From NCBI GenBank assembly GCA_025677815.1, contig JAIXMP010000037.1:310001-374000 (forward strand): a DNA stretch of 64,000 nt, written 5' to 3'. Position numbers and translations under genes: made by a program. The DNA is from Phascolomyces articulosus. Its lineage: Eukaryota; Mucoromycota; Mucoromycetes; Mucorales; Lichtheimiaceae. Under the pieces are notes generated by a model that saw nothing but the letters and a program-made list of their open reading frames with translations, did no database searches and was not told the origin of the DNA. Of the stretch, positions 21,059 to 62,277 are shown in pieces. Position 1 is the stretch's first letter. Each line of letters starts with the position of its first letter.

Positions 21059-22550
21059 ATGACTGGAGATATGTTACCAACAACGTTAATTCACGATTCC
21101 AGTAACCGTAATATTCAACCTAATGTTGAAAATATTATTGTGAAAAAAGAACCGGTTGAAGGTAATGTCTAGTTAGGTGCTAAGTGCTTTTGCTTTTTGA
21201 CATGAATCCTGTTTGCACCATTCAACTGAAGAAAAGAAATGAGATTCACCATTGGCTTTTTTTTGGAACTTCTGGTGAAGGTACAGATATCGCTGGAATA
21301 CACTTCAAGCTGGAAGAAGAATAGTGCGTGCCAGTATTACCTCACATGGCATCATCACATACAACTTTTAATAGTACCACTCCTTATAATCAACCTGAAA
21401 TGGATGACGTGGTAAATCAAGAAGAAGAAGTTATAAGTGCCAATGAAAATGGATCAGAACAGCAGGTTTCTCGGAATCCAACAACTTTGATAGGAACTCT
21501 TCAAAATGTCCTGATCTTAGAGTATGCAAGAACATCAGAGCGACGATGGAGGCGACCTGTTGTCATACCAGCTCAACAAGATAAAGATGCTGTATCTCCT
21601 TTTGAATCCATTCAATCCCATTCAGATTTAGGATGTTTCATCAAAGAAGAAGATGAAGAAGACAAAGAGGAGGAGGAGGGTAGTGATGCTAATGGGGTTC
21701 GATTAAGTGTTGGCAATTCTTCCATTACTGAGGAATCTTCTACTATTATAAGCGATGTATCTGGATCCGATTTTGAAGGTATGTAAGAGTGAATAAAAAG
21801 GTATAGATGCATTAATATGTCTGATTTCATTCCCAAAGAACTACAGTAGTAATAAAGGATACGGATTTTTCCCAATTAGGTTCTGGTATTTATACTAATT
21901 CATCGGAAGAAGGTTAAAGTTTTATGGAAAGTATGAGGCAGCATAGAATAAACACTCGATCCAAAAGAAGAAATGGACTGGCTGTAAATTATGGCCGTGA
22001 TACGTCTGCTATGGATATACAAGATTCAGAATCAACACCTATGACTACGCGTTCTTCATACTATAATAATGCTAGTAATGTATTAAAACTGTTAATGTTA
22101 TAATGCAAAGAATGAGAGTTGTTATCTATCGATTTATAATAACCATCATCTGATATAATTTCAGGGCGGGTTACAAGATCGAAATCAGCAGAAATGAAGC
22201 AATCCAAACAAGGTACTGTGTTAACACCCAATAAAGAACAGCCGAATTTATTAGGGTCAAAGCGTAAACGACAAGCACCGGCTTCATCGGATGGTAATAA
22301 AAATAGCAAATGCTGTATGTTATAATATAGTCGCTTTTGTACTAATCATTTCCAATCATATAGTGGACGAAGACAATAATAATAATAGCACCAGCAGTAA
22401 TGCAACCACAGGAGAGGCATCAAAACGTCATAAAAATGCAAAATATGTCTCATTATCAATTCAACAACAGCATAAAGGTTTAAAAGTTATATACTTTAAA
22501 AGGATTTATGAATATATAGTTTAACGGTGTCATTTTATTATTTAATATAG

Positions 22551-22844
22551 AACGATCTTATTGCCCTTACAAAGGATGTCATTACTCAGCAATTGCACTA
22601 GATGCTATCTACCGCCATATTCGAATGCATCACTTTCCCGGATTAGAAAAAACCTTAGGAAATGATAAAAATCACAAAACAACATTTGGAAAAATCATTG
22701 ACTACGACGGTAAAGTAAAAGACATTTCTCAAACCAGGGTTAAAGATCATGATGATGGCTTATTAATTCATGATGTTTTTATAGCAAACTCAAGAAATTT
22801 ATTAGATGAAGGAGATGCAATAATTGTGGAAAAACAAGTTTTAG
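22551..22844 (+). repeat. zinc-finger module 1 (finger and cap in one exon)
   Basis: The finger reads CPYKGC then YRHIRMHHFPGL, followed by GKIIDYDG. A linker of about 25 residues leads to the cap NSRNLLDEGDAIIVE. Unlike later copies, finger and cap share one exon. The exon is flanked by phase-1 introns. Confidence 0.8.
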
Positions 22845-22931
22845 GTAATATATATATGTATATATATAAATGACAAAATGTACACCCATTGTTTATTGAA
22901 AAAATTACCTTGGATTTGTGATATTTTGAAG

Positions 22932-23290
22932 GGCCACCATATTATTGTCCTTTTCGAGGATGTAACAAGATATCTAACCGCGAAAGAAAGCACATCTATA
23001 AACATATTAAAGAAAGACATGATCAAGGATTTTCTTTTTCTCGAAAAGGAGGATACGTGTTCAAGAATCGTCATGGACAAACTGTTGATTTTACAGGTAA
23101 AAAATAATCAATAGAAAAGGGAATATTTTGTATGGGCTTCTAAGAGTGAGAGTGAGAACAATTCATGATTTATCAGGCATATCATATTTTTGTCCATTAA
23201 TAAGTAAATACATCGATTTAGAGAATTCGAAAGATTTAGTTGCTGATGGAGATAAAATTGTACATGTCAGAAATCTCAAAAATAAAAAAG
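22932..23290 (+). repeat. zinc-finger module 2
   Basis: The finger exon 22932-23096 reads CPFRGC then YKHIKERH and ends GQTVDFTG. The cap exon 23222-23290 encodes ENSKDLVADGDKIVHV. Both exons are phase 1-1. Confidence 0.8.
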
Positions 23291-23379
23291 GTATATTTTT
23301 AAACTTCGAACACGTTTTATTGTTACGTTATCTTAATAAATCAATTAAAAAGGATGTAGGCTCTAACTAAAAAAATAAG

Positions 23380-23731
23380 TGTTATACTACTGTCCATATC
23401 AAGGATGTGATTATTCTCCAAGATTTTCAACTTCTGTTTATAGGCACATACGAGAAAAGCATTATCCAGCTTTCCCCAAATTCACAGTACCGGGAAAGAA
23501 GGTTTTTAAAACTACCACCAACCAAATTATCGATTTCACGGGTAAGCGCAAAGTAGAATGATTCAATGAGAAGATGATATACACACTGTATTTATTATAT
23601 TTGTTAACAAATAGAAACATCACTAATACGCTACTGGATTATTTTTTGATCAATTATTATCATTGTAGAAAATACGAGAAATTTGTTAAAGAGTGGAGAT
23701 CCATTATTAGTAGAAAACATAATAGCGTCAG
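23380..23731 (+). repeat. zinc-finger module 3
   Basis: The finger exon 23380-23541 reads CPYQGC then YRHIREKHYPAFPKF and ends NQIIDFTG. The cap exon 23669-23731 encodes ENTRNLLKSGDPLLVEN. Both exons are phase 1-1. Confidence 0.8.
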
Positions 23732-23835
23732 GTATGTCATTCTATTAAAACAAACAAATAGATATATGTTAGAGTATTCTTTTTTATACTTTATTTACAT
23801 TAATTGACATATATCATTTCAATGATAAATGATAG

Positions 23836-24141
23836 CAAAACGTTATTATTGTCCATATAGAGCTTGCTCTTTTGTAAGTAGATGCAAAAGATCCATGGTT
23901 ATAAAGCACATTCGAATGCGTCACTTTCCAGAACTACAACATATGTACATGGGTGGAAGAGTCACCATGAAAACTACTTCTGGAAAAATAATTGATTTTG
24001 CTGGTAATTAGAAAAGACACTTTGGAATATTAGGCTATTTTAACTCATATAGTAATACTAATAATTAAATATATATCCCAGAATCTTCAAAAAGTCTCTT
24101 AAGCGATGGAGAAGTTATCTTGGTGCATGTAAAGCAAGAGG
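23836..24141 (+). repeat. zinc-finger module 4
   Basis: The finger exon 23836-24003 reads CPYRAC then IKHIRMRHFPEL and ends SGKIIDFAG. The cap exon 24082-24141 encodes ESSKSLLSDGEVILVHV. Both exons are phase 1-1. Confidence 0.8.
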
Positions 24142-24250
24142 GTATAATTATAAAAATTAATTTCTCTGTTACGGATTTATGAAATCTGTTTATATTCATT
24201 TATAATAACTTATTGTTCGAAAACCCTTAATAAAAAAATGCTTTATTTAG

Positions 24251-24578
24251 GCCGCTTTTACTGCCCCTATCAAGATTGTACTTGTACAACAATTAGTTCT
24301 AAATCTCATATGTATCCTCATATTCGAAAACGACATTTTCCAGAGCTACCCAGCTTAGCATCACTGCTTAATCCCCTTATTTTAAAACGGTATTCGGACA
24401 AGTCATTGATTTTGGATGTAATGATATATATAAAAAGATTTAAAGTGCTAATCAGAGAAGAGGTGTTCTTTTACTTACTTTCCTTCCTTATCATTATGTC
24501 ATTATCTGTTGCTTATAGTAAAATCACAAAATCTATTGAAGGATGGCGATACAATTATAGTGGAAAGTGAAAATATAG
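24251..24578 (+). repeat. zinc-finger module 5, frameshifted
   Basis: The finger exon 24251-24417 reads CPYQDC then YPHIRKRHFPELP. The conserved tail then appears in another frame (VFGQVIDFG), showing a one-base loss or equivalent near 24383-24388 in a TTTTAAAA tract. The cap exon 24519-24578 is intact (SQNLLKDGDTIIVES). The exon length departs from the 1-1 phase rule by one base, in agreement. Confidence 0.72.
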
Positions 24579-24698
24579 GTATAAAAATATGAATAAGTTG
24601 TGGATTATATTATGCTAATCTTTTTTATGATCTATGTATACTTTCATCACCTGGTGTTATCATCAATGACATAAGACTTATATACAATTATTATCCAG

Positions 24699-24863
24699 GG
24701 CTTTCCTACTGTCCCTATAAAGACTGTACATATTCTGTAGGAATGTTACAGGTTATGTACTCCCATATTCGTACAGAACACTTTAAAAAATTACCAGACT
24801 GTTTGAATACTTCACCGGGGTTCTTATTAAAAACCTCCACAGGACAAGTAATTGATTTCAATG
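24699..24863 (+). repeat. zinc-finger module 6, cap missing
   Basis: The finger reads CPYKDC then YSHIRTEHFKKLP and ends GQVIDFNG. The usual strong donor is replaced by GTTCAA, and no cap exon is visible before module 7. If the donor is used, the reading frame into module 7 is kept. Confidence 0.72.
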
Positions 24864-25093
24864 GTTCAAACAATAGAATAAGATCTAATAATTGAGGGAC
24901 TTTCTACAGCCATAATATCCTATTTATTAACTTAGGGTTTCCTTTTTATCATATTGTATATTGGTATCAGGGTCACAGAAATTAATAAAAAGTAAATAGT
25001 AATAACAATTGCTACTTATTTCTACCGATAATTAACAACCAAATTAATGCAGTATTTGCCTCTTCTTTTTTTTCTGCCATTTTTAAAATTTAG

Positions 25094-25456
25094 AATTTTA
25101 CTGTCCATACAAAGGCTGCAATCATTGGTGGTCCGAAGCATCACGTCTTTATAGGCACTTTCGACAAAATAAGAAGCATGGAGTATGTTTTCCCAGCAAA
25201 ATCCAAGCAACGCCCTTAGGATTTACTTTTAAGACACCTTCAGGCAAAACTATACATTTTGATGATGGTTAGTATACTACTCTTCATGTATTTAAACAAA
25301 TGATTTCTTTTAATAGGAGTATAAATATCATTTTAAGTATAATAATTAATATAGCTATGTATTTGGAATTGTTATACTTTAGAAAGTTGCCGCAATTTGC
25401 TTTACGATGGGGAGACTATTAGTGTTGAAACTCCTCTTCCAAGAAGAAGAAAATGA
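25094..25456 (+). repeat. zinc-finger module 7, terminal
   Basis: The finger exon 25094-25267 reads CPYKGC then LYRHFRQNKKH, with a wider H-to-H gap than the other copies, and ends GKTIHFDD. The last exon 25383-25456 encodes the cap SCRNLLYDGETISVE, a basic tail PRRRK and the TGA stop. Confidence 0.75.
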
Positions 25457-27501: not shown

Positions 27502-29581
27502 TCAAACAATCATTTCATAATCTCCTACAGCATCGTAAAGTCTTAATTCTCTATCAGCTTCCATATCCGCATCATTATCATCTTGTACACGGTTTTGCAA
27601 TTTATGAATTGTATCGGTATAGTGGCTGGATATTGAATCCCAATCAATAAATTGTGTTTTAGTTGTTCGTCGAAGAAGGTAGTCAAGGTAAATTTTGTTC
27701 CAATGAGTACCTATTGCAAGATTCGTCTCTTTATTTGTTGCTTGAGCATGTCCACTTCGGGTCGACATATGAAAATATATCTATAATAAAAATCCTATAT
27801 ATTAGCATACTATTCGCAGATTGTTCAAACAAGACAAACGCAGATGCTACCATGGTAAATGTTAAACAAATCAAAGCTGGTGGTATTGGGTCAGGGGTTG
27901 GTGCCACCCGTGCTCCCCCTCTACCATTGATGTTGAAAAAAACTTCATTCAAAATCCTTGGTATGCACTCGTTTCTGAACATCTCACCATGTCCAGTATA
28001 ACCAGCTTTGGCAAAACTAAATATATGTGGATAATAAAACCAGTCGCCTATCATTAGTTACCTATTATCGTTTTACAATAGAGGAAACTCCAAAATTGCG
28101 CACCGAAACAAATCCAAAAGGTAAAGGTACTGTTTTTTGCTCCCACTTATTCTAAAGTCATGGGGAAGCAGAGTAGTAGCAAATTTGTACTTCTGCATTC
28201 TTGTATCCACTTGGCGACGTGCTGATGTTCTTCTTGCTGTAAGAACATTCCGAAACTTGATGTAGGTATATAAACAGATATTTTAATATTCGCTTCTCTC
28301 CCCCTAAATATTCCATCATTGTGGGTCAGGAGCAAAAAAAAAAAAATGATATCACGATTACCTCAGATCTAATTAGTCCAGATGATTCGTATTTAAACCG
28401 TTCAAAATCGAGTTCTTCTGAAGTAATTTCGATAGCAAGTTTGTCACTAACAGCATTGGATTCTGCAGTGTCAGGGAAAGCATTAACCGTATAGCAATAC
28501 ATTGCCACACCCTTCTCAAACCTATCCCACTGCTCACCATGATCCATATCAAATGATAATATCCGGGTTTGTTTGCTAGTTTATAATTGTTTAAAAAAGA
28601 AAGACAACATAAAACATAAAAATAATTTCTGAAAAAGATTAAAGAACATTATATATATAAATAATAAATTAGGTGCTATCACTACCTGTAAGGGACAATA
28701 TGAGAATAGTTCAAATTATATGGTGGTCTGTTTTCTACTGGAGAATCTTCTTCATGTTGACCATAGCGACGTGGTGACGAACCTTCTAATATCGATGAAC
28801 CACTTGAATTTGTGGGATGTGATATCATTTATATGAATATATATTTATACGTTAGTCGTTTTAAGTGAAATAAAAGGGATGTTAATATGCTACCTAGATT
28901 GATTCATTGTACGTAAACTAAAGTAATTATCTTCATTCATATAAACTTTGAATAGTATAAATATAAAATACTAATAAACCTGTCATATTGAATACATACA
29001 TTTCGTTGTTTGATGAATCACTATCACTTGCATTGCATTGATTTTGGACGGGAAAATTCAATCTAAGATCTTGTAAAAGTGTATGCGTCAAAGCTGATTC
29101 AGCCTGGTTTGCTGATTGTGAAACTTGAATTGTACCAGCAATCAAGTCTTGATTACTTGGAGAAGGGGTATCTTGGGGAGTAATGCTTGATCTGCTACTA
29201 GTTCTTGACCCATATTAAAAACACGATCCATTACTGTTACTGACTATATGACTAACAAAAAAAAGCGATATGGTCAATTGGTCTATGTCAACTTACCTTG
29301 ATTGCCGTTCTGGTAAAATATTCGAAGTAATTGATTCAATCTGATTTTCAACATTCGAATTATTTCTTGATCTTGCTGCGGAAATTGACATGAGTACTAC
29401 ATGTTAGCACTTTTAGGTGATTTATGATTCATTAAGTACAATTTATGTTACCAGCAACATGCGATCGTGTCAGCCGTCTATTGTGTTGAATGCCTCGGGG
29501 TTGATCTAATATATTTTCTCTTTCTCGAGCAATAGGGTCTCTTCTTCGACGGTATTTTTTAGATTGTCTACCACATGCCAT
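27502..29581 (-). CDS. transposon accessory protein, DUF6532-like
   Basis: This is the second gene of the Plavaka-like element, divergent from the transposase with 216 bp between the start codons. It starts at 29581 with a basic segment, MACGRQSKKYRRRRD, then a Ser/Asn/Gln-rich linker spread over several small exons. A more conserved C-terminal half follows: GYTGHGEMFRNECIPRILN, then PIPPALICLTFTMVASAF, then THWNKIYLDYLL near 27.7 kb. This layout (a helix, a P-x-P-x-x-L-x-x-x-T segment, and a Y-x-x-Y helix) resembles the DUF6532 proteins common in mushroom genomes; that link is from memory and only moderate. The function of the family is unknown to me. Exon borders between 28.1 and 28.9 kb are not fully resolved. 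Confidence 0.6.
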
Positions 29582-46310: not shown

Positions 46311-47503
46311 TTTTAAGATGGGGCAAAGTAAACAAATTGATATGCAGTATAAAATAAAGTGTACATGTAATTTCTTTTTATTTAGAAGCTCTTCTTCCGA
46401 ATAGATCTGACCCATCATGTATTTTTATTTAATTGTTTTATAAATATTTATACTCTTACATTTTTACTATTTCTATACGTACTTTGTATAGCTATATGAT
46501 ATATAAATAATAATTATTGGGTAAGTGGTTTTTCGGATTGCTATCATATTCACTGGTATGTCCTCTAAAAATGTATGAGATATGATGTTAAATCCCTTTA
46601 TGTAGCAATAAGTAGTCCTGTGGAATACTGGTAAAATAATAATTCATTACATATATATTATCGAATGGATTGTTGGAATTTTTCACAGTTACCCATTTTT
46701 ACATACTCATGGATCAAACAAACCAAAAATCTTGACTGCATGATGTGAGTACGTAGTGTCTGCAATTATATTTTATACCAGAAATTCCGATAGCTTTACT
46801 TGGTGAATATCATAGGAATATTATCCATGCGGCGCTTGCTCCGATGGGAAGGTGGGAGTAGAAAACCTAGTAGTGTACAGTGCTATGCTGCACAGACTTT
46901 CTAAAAAGCCACAGCATCCATCTGTTGTTGCCATTTATAGCAGAGGACTAGCCATTATCTTGGGAGATGTGCATCTTTGTTTTACATGTATACTTAGTTG
47001 TTGTATTGATCCTGCAGCAAATTTATTATAAATAATACAGCCGATAATATTTTTTTTATAAATTATTACAAATTATATACTTATTGTTTAGTAGTCTATA
47101 CATTGGAAAAAAAAAGATACTGAAAAGGGTTTTTTTACTATGGGAGAAACATGGTCAGAAACAAACCATCTAAACCGGAAAAGATGTAAAGCAAATGGTA
47201 TAATACCAGGAATGATAGTAATAATTCATAGTTGGATAAATCAAGGATTACATCGACTTCGCGTATATGCACTACCGGGGAGCTCATCAATATAGTATAG
47301 AGAAAAGGTTTACCCACTAGGCGGAATAGGTCTTGGAATTATCTGGGATTCTTAGTAATACAGCACTAGACCCTACCAGCCCAGCCAATGCGAGCCTCTC
47401 AACCAAGTATTTTTCCCACCTGTTCGCTTTTATACCGCTACCCCGCTCGCGTTACCCTTGAACCCTTATTTTTTTTCTTTCTTTCGTCAACCATAAAAAA
47501 GTC
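46311..47503. other. intergenic region
   Basis: About 1.2 kb of A+T-rich DNA between the MFS gene and the dehydrogenase. The last ~100 bases (47400-47503) are less A+T-rich, with CT tracts and CCCGCTCGCG-like sequence, and probably hold the dehydrogenase promoter. No other feature is supported. Confidence 0.45.
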
Positions 47504-48635
47504 ATGTCACTCAAGTGGGGAATCATTGGAACTGGAAGCATTGCACATACCTTTGCCATTGGTTTAAAAGCTGCTAAAAAGGGAGAGTTGGTGGCTATTG
47601 GAAGCCGAGCTAAAGAAACCGCTGTCAAGTTTGGTTCTCAATATGGAGTACCTGAAGACAAGTGCTACGCTACCTATGCTGACCTTTTGAAGGACCCTTC
47701 AGTAGACGTTGTCTACATTTCTACTCCTCATCCCCAACATTGCGAAGTTGCCATTCAAACTGTTCAGGCCAAGAAGCATGCTCTTGTTGAAAAACCTTTT
47801 GCAATGAACGAGGAAGAAGCGACGCGTATTCTTGCAGCAGCCAAGGAAAACGACGTGTTCTTGATGGAAGCTTATATGTATCGATGCCATCCACAAACAC
47901 GAAAAATTGTTGAATTGATCCAAACTGGAGCTATTGGACAAGTCAAGGTGATTCGTGCCAACTTTGCCTTTAATGGTTTCCCCTTAGGTTCCGACTCTCG
48001 ATTGTGGAGAAATGAGTTGGGTGGCGGTGCGATCTTGGATATTGGTGGATGTAGGCTATTTTTTTGTAACTTTTTTTGTTGGATACATGTGTGTGAATAT
48101 ATGATTATATGTGAACTCAAGTGATACAAAATACAATGGTATAGATCCCATGTCGTTTGCGCGTTTAATTGCTGGTGTTGCTAATAACCAAGGTTTCGCT
48201 AATCCAACTGAAATCAAGGCAGTTGGACACATTCAACCTGATACCAAAGTGGACGAATGGACTATTGCATCTTTATCCTTTGATGATAAGATTTCTGCAC
48301 AACTTTTCACGGGTATTTTCGCTGACACAGATAGTAGTGTGACAGTCCTTGGTAGCAAAGGATCGATTACTGCACCCAACCTATGGAGACCTGATTTACC
48401 TGCAATGGCTGCTATGAAGATTGAATTGACAGAATATGGTAAAGAACCAGAACAAGTTCCTTTTGATCTCCCTGAACCTAATCTTTATGCAATCGAGGCA
48501 GATGCTGTTGCAGATGCTATTTCCCAAGGTGAAAAACAATGCAAGTATATGACCTGGGAAGACAGTATGGGTCAAATCCGTGCCGTTGACAAATGGCGTA
48601 AAGAAATTGGTTTGGTTTATCCTTCTGATAATTAA
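47504..48635 (+). CDS. Gfo/Idh/MocA oxidoreductase, dihydrodiol / D-xylose dehydrogenase-like
   Basis: This NADP-dependent dehydrogenase belongs to the Gfo/Idh/MocA family and is closest in pattern to trans-1,2-dihydrobenzene-1,2-diol dehydrogenase and fungal D-xylose dehydrogenase. Two exons, 47504-48050 and 48145-48635, give 345 residues. The Rossmann motif GIIGTGSIAHTFA is at the N terminus. VEKPFAMNEEEA holds the EKP motif with the Lys thought to position substrate. FLMEAYMYRCHPQ is also typical of this subgroup. The splice creates DIGGYPMSFARLI, matching the family's DxGxYP. The exact substrate cannot be decided from sequence; aldoses or diols are both possible. Confidence 0.87.
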
Positions 48636-55734: not shown

Positions 55735-55836
55735 ACGCACCAAATTGGGCTCAGAAAGGCGCTTAGGATACCAATCTGCTAAGAATTCACTGCTTAAAAA
55801 TGCACTGTTGATGAAGTCTTAACTTTCATAGCCCGC
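55735..55836 (+). repeat. left terminal inverted repeat of the KDZ element
   Basis: It starts ACGCACCAAATTGGGCTC and ends TTTCATAGCCCGC. It is the inverted match of 62176-62277 over 102 bases with one mismatch (G versus A at the 73rd base). Confidence 0.9.
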
Positions 55837-62175: not shown

Positions 62176-62277
62176 GCGGGCTATGAAAGTTAAGACTTCA
62201 TCAATAGTGCATTTTTAAGCAGTGAATTCTTAGCAGATTGGTATCCTAAGCGCCTTTCTGAGCCCAATTTGGTGCGT
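62176..62277 (-). repeat. right terminal inverted repeat of the KDZ element
   Basis: Inverted copy of 55735-55836; it ends TTTGGTGCGT on the plus strand. See the left repeat for the comparison. Confidence 0.9.

Follow-up and report, generated by a model that had tools for sequence, protein, structure and literature searches.

We analysed a window of 64,000 nucleotides from the genome of Phascolomyces articulosus (Mucorales, Lichtheimiaceae; contig JAIXMP010000037.1, positions 310,001 to 374,000), which contains a gene with seven Cys2-His2 (C2H2) zinc-finger exons at 22551-25267 and six usable short ‘cap’ exons (C1-C5 and C7). The gene is best explained as one old, perhaps partly decayed, copy within a lineage-specific, diversifying family of multi-module DNA-binding proteins, a reading of the sequence to which we assign a probability of roughly 0.6. 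One intron divides each module between a finger exon and a cap exon. Both exons are flanked mostly by phase-1 introns, so the two-exon unit can be gained or lost in tandem without a change of frame. After some duplications, the residues at the helix start and in the finger-tail linker have changed and the rest of the module has changed little, with a nearly identical intron where DNA is at hand (one copy on contig C22); Zychaea provides a second case, at the protein level only. The proteins would be nuclear, with each finger reading a short DNA stretch and each tail spacing or stabilising its finger, and the arrays would acquire new specificities as modules are copied and contact residues altered.

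The module and its copies

The window is part of a contig of 413,035 bases (C42) in a genome of 47.4 Mb and 110 contigs. A genome search with the third window finger returned 58 matches on many contigs (E-value, E ≤ 10), and two further queries returned 45 and 42 matches (E ≤ 1). As the sequence-only reading of the window had proposed, a profile could be built from the unit, and it located further copies. Across 24 genome stretches, the finger profile gave at least 70 matches (E < 1e-3) and the cap profile at least 36 (E < 0.1), lower bounds that cover a subset of the genome matches and include some partial exons. All seven window fingers were recovered both by the finger 3 search and by the finger profile. 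A genome search with the cap alone returned a single match, cap C3, the query being too short to be informative.

Two or more fingers occur in 19 of the 24 stretches. Finger and cap both match in 19 of 24, so their pairing exceeds chance. Where both occur, the usual order is finger, cap, finger, cap; some terminal caps run on to a stop codon, and a cap and the finger after it share one open frame without an intron at C56:1241431. Further P. articulosus family proteins are P0005 (probably contig C21) and P0014 (probably contig C22). A dispersed segmental copy at C24:433960-435214 and C34:1769514-1770842 (88-90%) carries one finger, the frame of which is broken on C34. Near a single degenerate finger lies a long inverted repeat (C42:153174-154085), aligning to its reverse complement over 922 columns with a 93% match.

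In the 60 full-length finger exons, the nearest donor is of phase 1 in 54 cases, including one where a stop precedes it, of phase 2 in one and of phase 0 in one; none was found in four. Cap acceptors could be scored in 34 of 36 exons and are in phase 1 in 30; the other four have an AG three bases beyond the limit and are phase 1 by eye. By a crude nearest-site rule, finger acceptors are in phase 1 in 42 of 63 exons (other phase in 9, none in 12) and cap donors in 17 of 36 (other phase in 8, none in 11). From these finger-side and cap-side counts, both exons of the module are mostly class 1-1, with phase 1 on either side.

In the structure model, the module spans 75-80 residues and comprises a C2H2 finger, commonly spaced C-x4-C-x12-H-x4-H, followed by a β-rich tail of about 45 residues. 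The assignment as C2H2 draws on the two cysteine and two histidine ligands, kept in all seven window fingers (F7 with an unusual H-x6-H), and on the ββα finger fold in the models of relatives P0002 and P0013. According to the modelling, finger and cap are one module split by an intron and not two domains, so the two-part pair described by the sequence-only reading is better regarded as a single unit. Its motifs proved loose, with G-x-I-I-D-F exact in one of seven fingers (F4) and N-L-L-x-D-G-[DE] at two of seven places (C5 and C7).

As far as tested, this finger-tail unit appears to be without a curated family, and to that extent the proposal that it was undescribed held. Matches to solved C2H2 fingers cover the finger part, the best having an E of 2.7e-5 over positions 2-23 of the 75 in the profile. 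No Pfam family exceeded its cut-off in the window pieces scanned, with PF00096 missed by the seven window fingers and by P0001, the deposited protein of the window gene; NCBIfam gave no match near its cut-off for modules 1-4, and Rfam none over its cut-off. Two relatives exceeded Pfam cut-offs solely as sums of weak pieces, with no single passing stretch: P0002 for PF25327 (UBL_ZFAND1, 30.1 bits against 27) and P0011 for PF17017 (zf-C2H2_aberr, 28.8 bits against 27), for which P0001 reached 22.9 bits. Foldseek found no match at E ≤ 0.001 in the structure libraries used, where an unlisted fold stays possible, and its weak list mixes poly-ubiquitin, ISG15, SUMO and zinc fingers. Among papers judged by title and the start of the abstract, with subscription papers mostly outside coverage, none describes the family, including, for the portion at hand, a review of fungal transcription factors (PMC5415576).

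Relatives were found in Fennellomyces (P0002, with eight units, and P0011-P0013), Circinella (P0004 and P0007) and Zychaea (P0003, P0006, P0009, and P0010 with a finger start only), all members of the Lichtheimiaceae. The array on contig C56 corresponds one-to-one with Circinella P0004 and therefore shows a sign of constraint. Protein searches, which need shared five-residue words and similar lengths, yielded no confirmed relative outside the Lichtheimiaceae, an absence that is unproven; the family is seen so far in one group of bread-mould relatives. One candidate, P0008, has similar YCPY fingers but no tail visible by eye and was dropped.

Module duplication and change at predicted contact positions

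A paralogue on contig C22 (136600-138000) shows growth by duplication of the module: three tandem finger-plus-cap units of about 465 bp (A, B and C) there are 89-92% alike. These recent two-exon copies, together with the phase counts, bear out the earlier proposal that arrays grow by duplicating class 1-1 exons. Between units B and C, 27 of 144 finger-exon sites and 3 of 161 intron sites differ (Fisher 3.6e-7), and 10 of the 27 finger-exon differences fall within codons 11-19. A and C compare alike (24/144 in the finger exon against 3/159 in the intron), and A and B more weakly (11/153 against 2/158, p 0.01). The changes lie near the recognition-helix positions and the linker that joins finger and tail. 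In the canonical numbering, with the first histidine at +7, the affected residues (11-16 and 19) are helix positions −3 to +3 and +6. In Zychaea, unit 1 of P0006 and P0009 shows 11 residue differences, all within 9-19 or 31-42, against 0 of 55 elsewhere.

Across the family, much variation is found at contact positions. Together with the C2H2 fingers and the basic exon N3, this variation suggests a nuclear DNA-binding function. Of the DNA-binding architecture put forward earlier, the undescribed unit is supported as far as tested, and the DNA binding is a prediction from sequence.

Several points weigh against a diversifying family of DNA readers. About 50 residues lie between fingers, a TGEKP-type linker is lacking, and the phase counts for the cap-to-finger introns are noisy. 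No significant helix-region excess is seen between C22 A and B (2/11 residues against 2/28 elsewhere) or in Zychaea unit 2 (3/11 against 4/30), and none by eye in the C24/C34 copy, in which the finger frame is broken on one side. The residue classes used for the C22 A-B comparison and for both Zychaea units were defined after the alignments had been viewed, and diversification was looked for in recent copies as they were noticed, not in a set fixed beforehand. Synonymous change between C22 B and C is also high (synonymous divergence, dS, 0.18; nonsynonymous, dN, 0.22), so the contrast with the intron could instead be due to gene conversion. Finally, positions 9 (3.74 bits) and 24 (3.60 bits), which are not among the canonical contacts, are equally variable, and high entropy can also reflect a lack of constraint.

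Structure and integrity of the window gene

The window gene matches a deposited hypothetical protein, P0001 (BDA99DRAFT_227427, 333 residues), at 100%. The 17-exon model implied by the sequence-only reading starts at 21346, and every exon was read with phase-1 entry (Table 1). Each of the 16 introns opens with GT and closes with AG. As assembled, 15 are in phase 1, where the sequence-only reading had all sixteen. F5, which breaks the frame, is the exception among the 12 internal array exons (F1-F7 and C1-C5), 11 of which have a length divisible by three. The introns of the array are mutual copies, so the sixteen do not represent sixteen independent events. P0001 agrees with the model over eight junctions, from F1/C1 to C4/F5. 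The reported limits of the array are exact, 22551 being the first base of F1 and 25456 the end of the C7 stop codon. The N-terminal exons are uncertain, with an alternative reading that begins at ATG 21924, and the phase-1 introns claimed for this part hold in the 17-exon model; the possible first exon N1 has no Pfam match.

The array follows the order of finger exon then cap exon with phase 1 on both sides, F5 being out of frame as assembled and cap 6 missing. Of the seven finger-plus-cap units first described, the seven finger exons therefore stand, but intact caps follow only fingers 1-5 and 7. Within F5, the finger lies in one frame and the conserved G-x-x-I-D-F half in another, a break that may be a mutation or an assembly error. 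The 230-base gap after finger 6 contains only a short degenerate cap-like stretch, recognised by eye. For the six of seven window fingers compared, the best match, inside or outside the array, has 39-48% identity, which makes the array old; by this measure the window copy is not a fresh expansion, and it is perhaps partly decayed.

It is quite possible, although the odds are below even, that the copy in the window is a pseudogene or has been shortened, with a decaying array that makes about five modules at most. P0001 stops inside F5, the length of F5 is 167 nt, and cap 6 is absent; on the other hand, no damage is seen in the remaining exons, splice sites and ligands or in the last cap, and the F5 break lies beside short homopolymers and so may be an assembly error. 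Such decay of one copy is compatible with the favoured explanation of the family as diversifying, multi-module DNA-binding proteins.

Table 1 Exons of the modelled window gene and a possible cap remnant (window positions; E, profile E-value)
Feature	Description	Position	Strand	Support
N1	Possible first coding exon, acidic; ATG 21346, phase-1 donor GTATGT	21346..21778	+	
N2	Possible exon, phase 1-1, donor GTTAAA	21847..21912	+	
N3	Basic exon, KRKR stretch (putatively nuclear-localisation-like), phase 1-1	22165..22293	+	
N4	Linker exon, phase 1-1	22364..22477	+	
F1	C2H2 finger exon 1	22551..22709	+	Profile, E 9.2e-14
C1	Cap (tail) exon 1, NLLDEGD	22785..22844	+	Profile; identical residues in P0001
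F2	Finger exon 2	22932..23096	+	Profile, E 6.2e-19
C2	Cap exon 2, DLVADGD	23222..23290	+	Profile
F3	Finger exon 3	23380..23541	+	Profile, E 1.1e-21
C3	Cap exon 3, NLLKSGD	23669..23731	+	Profile
F4	Finger exon 4	23836..24003	+	Profile, E 8.2e-19
C4	Cap exon 4, SLLSDGE	24082..24141	+	Profile
F5	Finger exon 5, 167 nt, frame break	24251..24417	+	Finger profile, E 2.6e-11
C5	Cap exon 5, NLLKDGD	24519..24578	+	Profile
F6	Finger exon 6	24699..24863	+	Profile, E 6.9e-16
Cap 6	Possible remnant, degenerate	24971..25000	+	By eye; no profile match
F7	Finger exon 7, unusual H-x6-H spacing	25094..25267	+	Profile, E 4.5e-13
C7	Last cap exon, NLLYDGE, basic PRRRK then stop codon	25383..25456	+	Profile

Elsewhere in the window, a DUF6532 match lies downstream of the array on the minus strand (27734-28057; 25.4 bits against a cut-off of 24). 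Two inverted pairs of about 69% identity (44424-45281/52805-53665 and 45465-45827/52294-52656) have a GFO_IDH_MocA-type open reading frame between them (47462-48121), and a 102-base inverted repeat of 99% identity occupies 55735-55836 and 62176-62277.

Alternative explanations and known systems

We consider it unlikely that the family is an ordinary C2H2 group, modestly expanded in this lineage under relaxed constraint and with unremarkable recognition positions. C2H2 fingers are indeed common in the genome (at least 94 PF00096 matches), the finger part resembles solved C2H2 fingers, and several recent pairs lack a helix excess. However, the seven window fingers and P0001 exceed no Pfam zinc-finger cut-off, no family is assigned to the tail, the C56 array keeps a one-to-one correspondence with Circinella, and at C22 the finger exon has diverged far more than the intron.

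A protein- or RNA-binding role is more improbable again. Here, finger and tail would form an interaction module, for example a ubiquitin-like one, with the variable helix turned toward a protein partner. The element order in the module model, ββ-α-ββ-turn-β, fits that of a β-grasp, which we take to be the order in ubiquitin, and both the weak Foldseek list and the PF25327 score of P0002 point the same way; neither a significant structure match nor a single passing PF25327 stretch accompanies them. At the sequence level, ubiquitin-like homology of the tail was not supported: profile comparison by hhalign with six P. articulosus ubiquitin-family domains gave probabilities of 0.7-0.9% in another register, with 8 of 200 column shuffles scoring as high.

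Carriage of the arrays by transposable elements is very improbable: there are dispersed copies, including the segmental one between C24 and C34, and an inverted repeat near one stretch (C42:153174-154085), but in the ten family proteins scanned all transposase-type scores stayed below their cut-offs (Transpos_assoc reached 18.3 bits on P0014, against 27.7), and the five of 16 other window open reading frames over a cut-off comprise four host-type matches (MIOX, DEAD helicase, GPR1/FUN34/yaaH and GFO_IDH_MocA) and one DUF6532.

Returning to the diversifying DNA-binding family, we offer one wider interpretation, tentative and rather doubtful: that it parallels, in fungi, the rapidly evolving zinc-finger systems of vertebrates, through a phase-1 exon-pair module that is copied and whose contact residues then change. 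The finger and a tail of a new kind, perhaps a zinc-stabilised β-grasp-like unit, would supply a DNA-reading repertoire that keeps changing, mobile elements being one possible target. If true, early-diverging fungi would have their own modular, frame-safe route to new zinc-finger readers. With recent tandem modules on C22 and a conserved C56 array in one genome, the drivers of contact-residue change are directly testable, and the family also allows the effect of the tail on finger spacing along DNA to be asked.

Among known systems, classical Krüppel-type arrays, of which TGEKP is the classical linker, have in common with the family the C2H2 ligands, the ββα finger, highly variable helix-start positions and tandem growth. 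The P. articulosus family differs in its common C-x4-C-x12-H-x4-H spacing with conserved Y-C-P-Y and H-I-R, in the tail of about 45 residues after the finger, in the lack of a TGEKP linker, and in its introns, one of which interrupts each module while another separates neighbouring modules. The zf-C2H2_aberr family (PF17017) gives weak profile matches, over the cut-off in P0011 but never in a single stretch. Ubiquitin-like domains have a similar strand and helix order, whereas the module carries zinc ligands and the likeness has neither sequence support nor a significant structure match. In the vertebrate PRDM9 and KRAB genes a single exon carries the fingers, whereas one module of the P. articulosus family comprises two class 1-1 exons. 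No PR/SET or KRAB domain was found at E ≤ 0.1 in the ten family proteins scanned, several of whose gene models appear partial. What the family has in common with KRAB genes and with PRDM9 (PMC8925151) is a change in array copies accompanied, in some copies, by fast change of contact residues.
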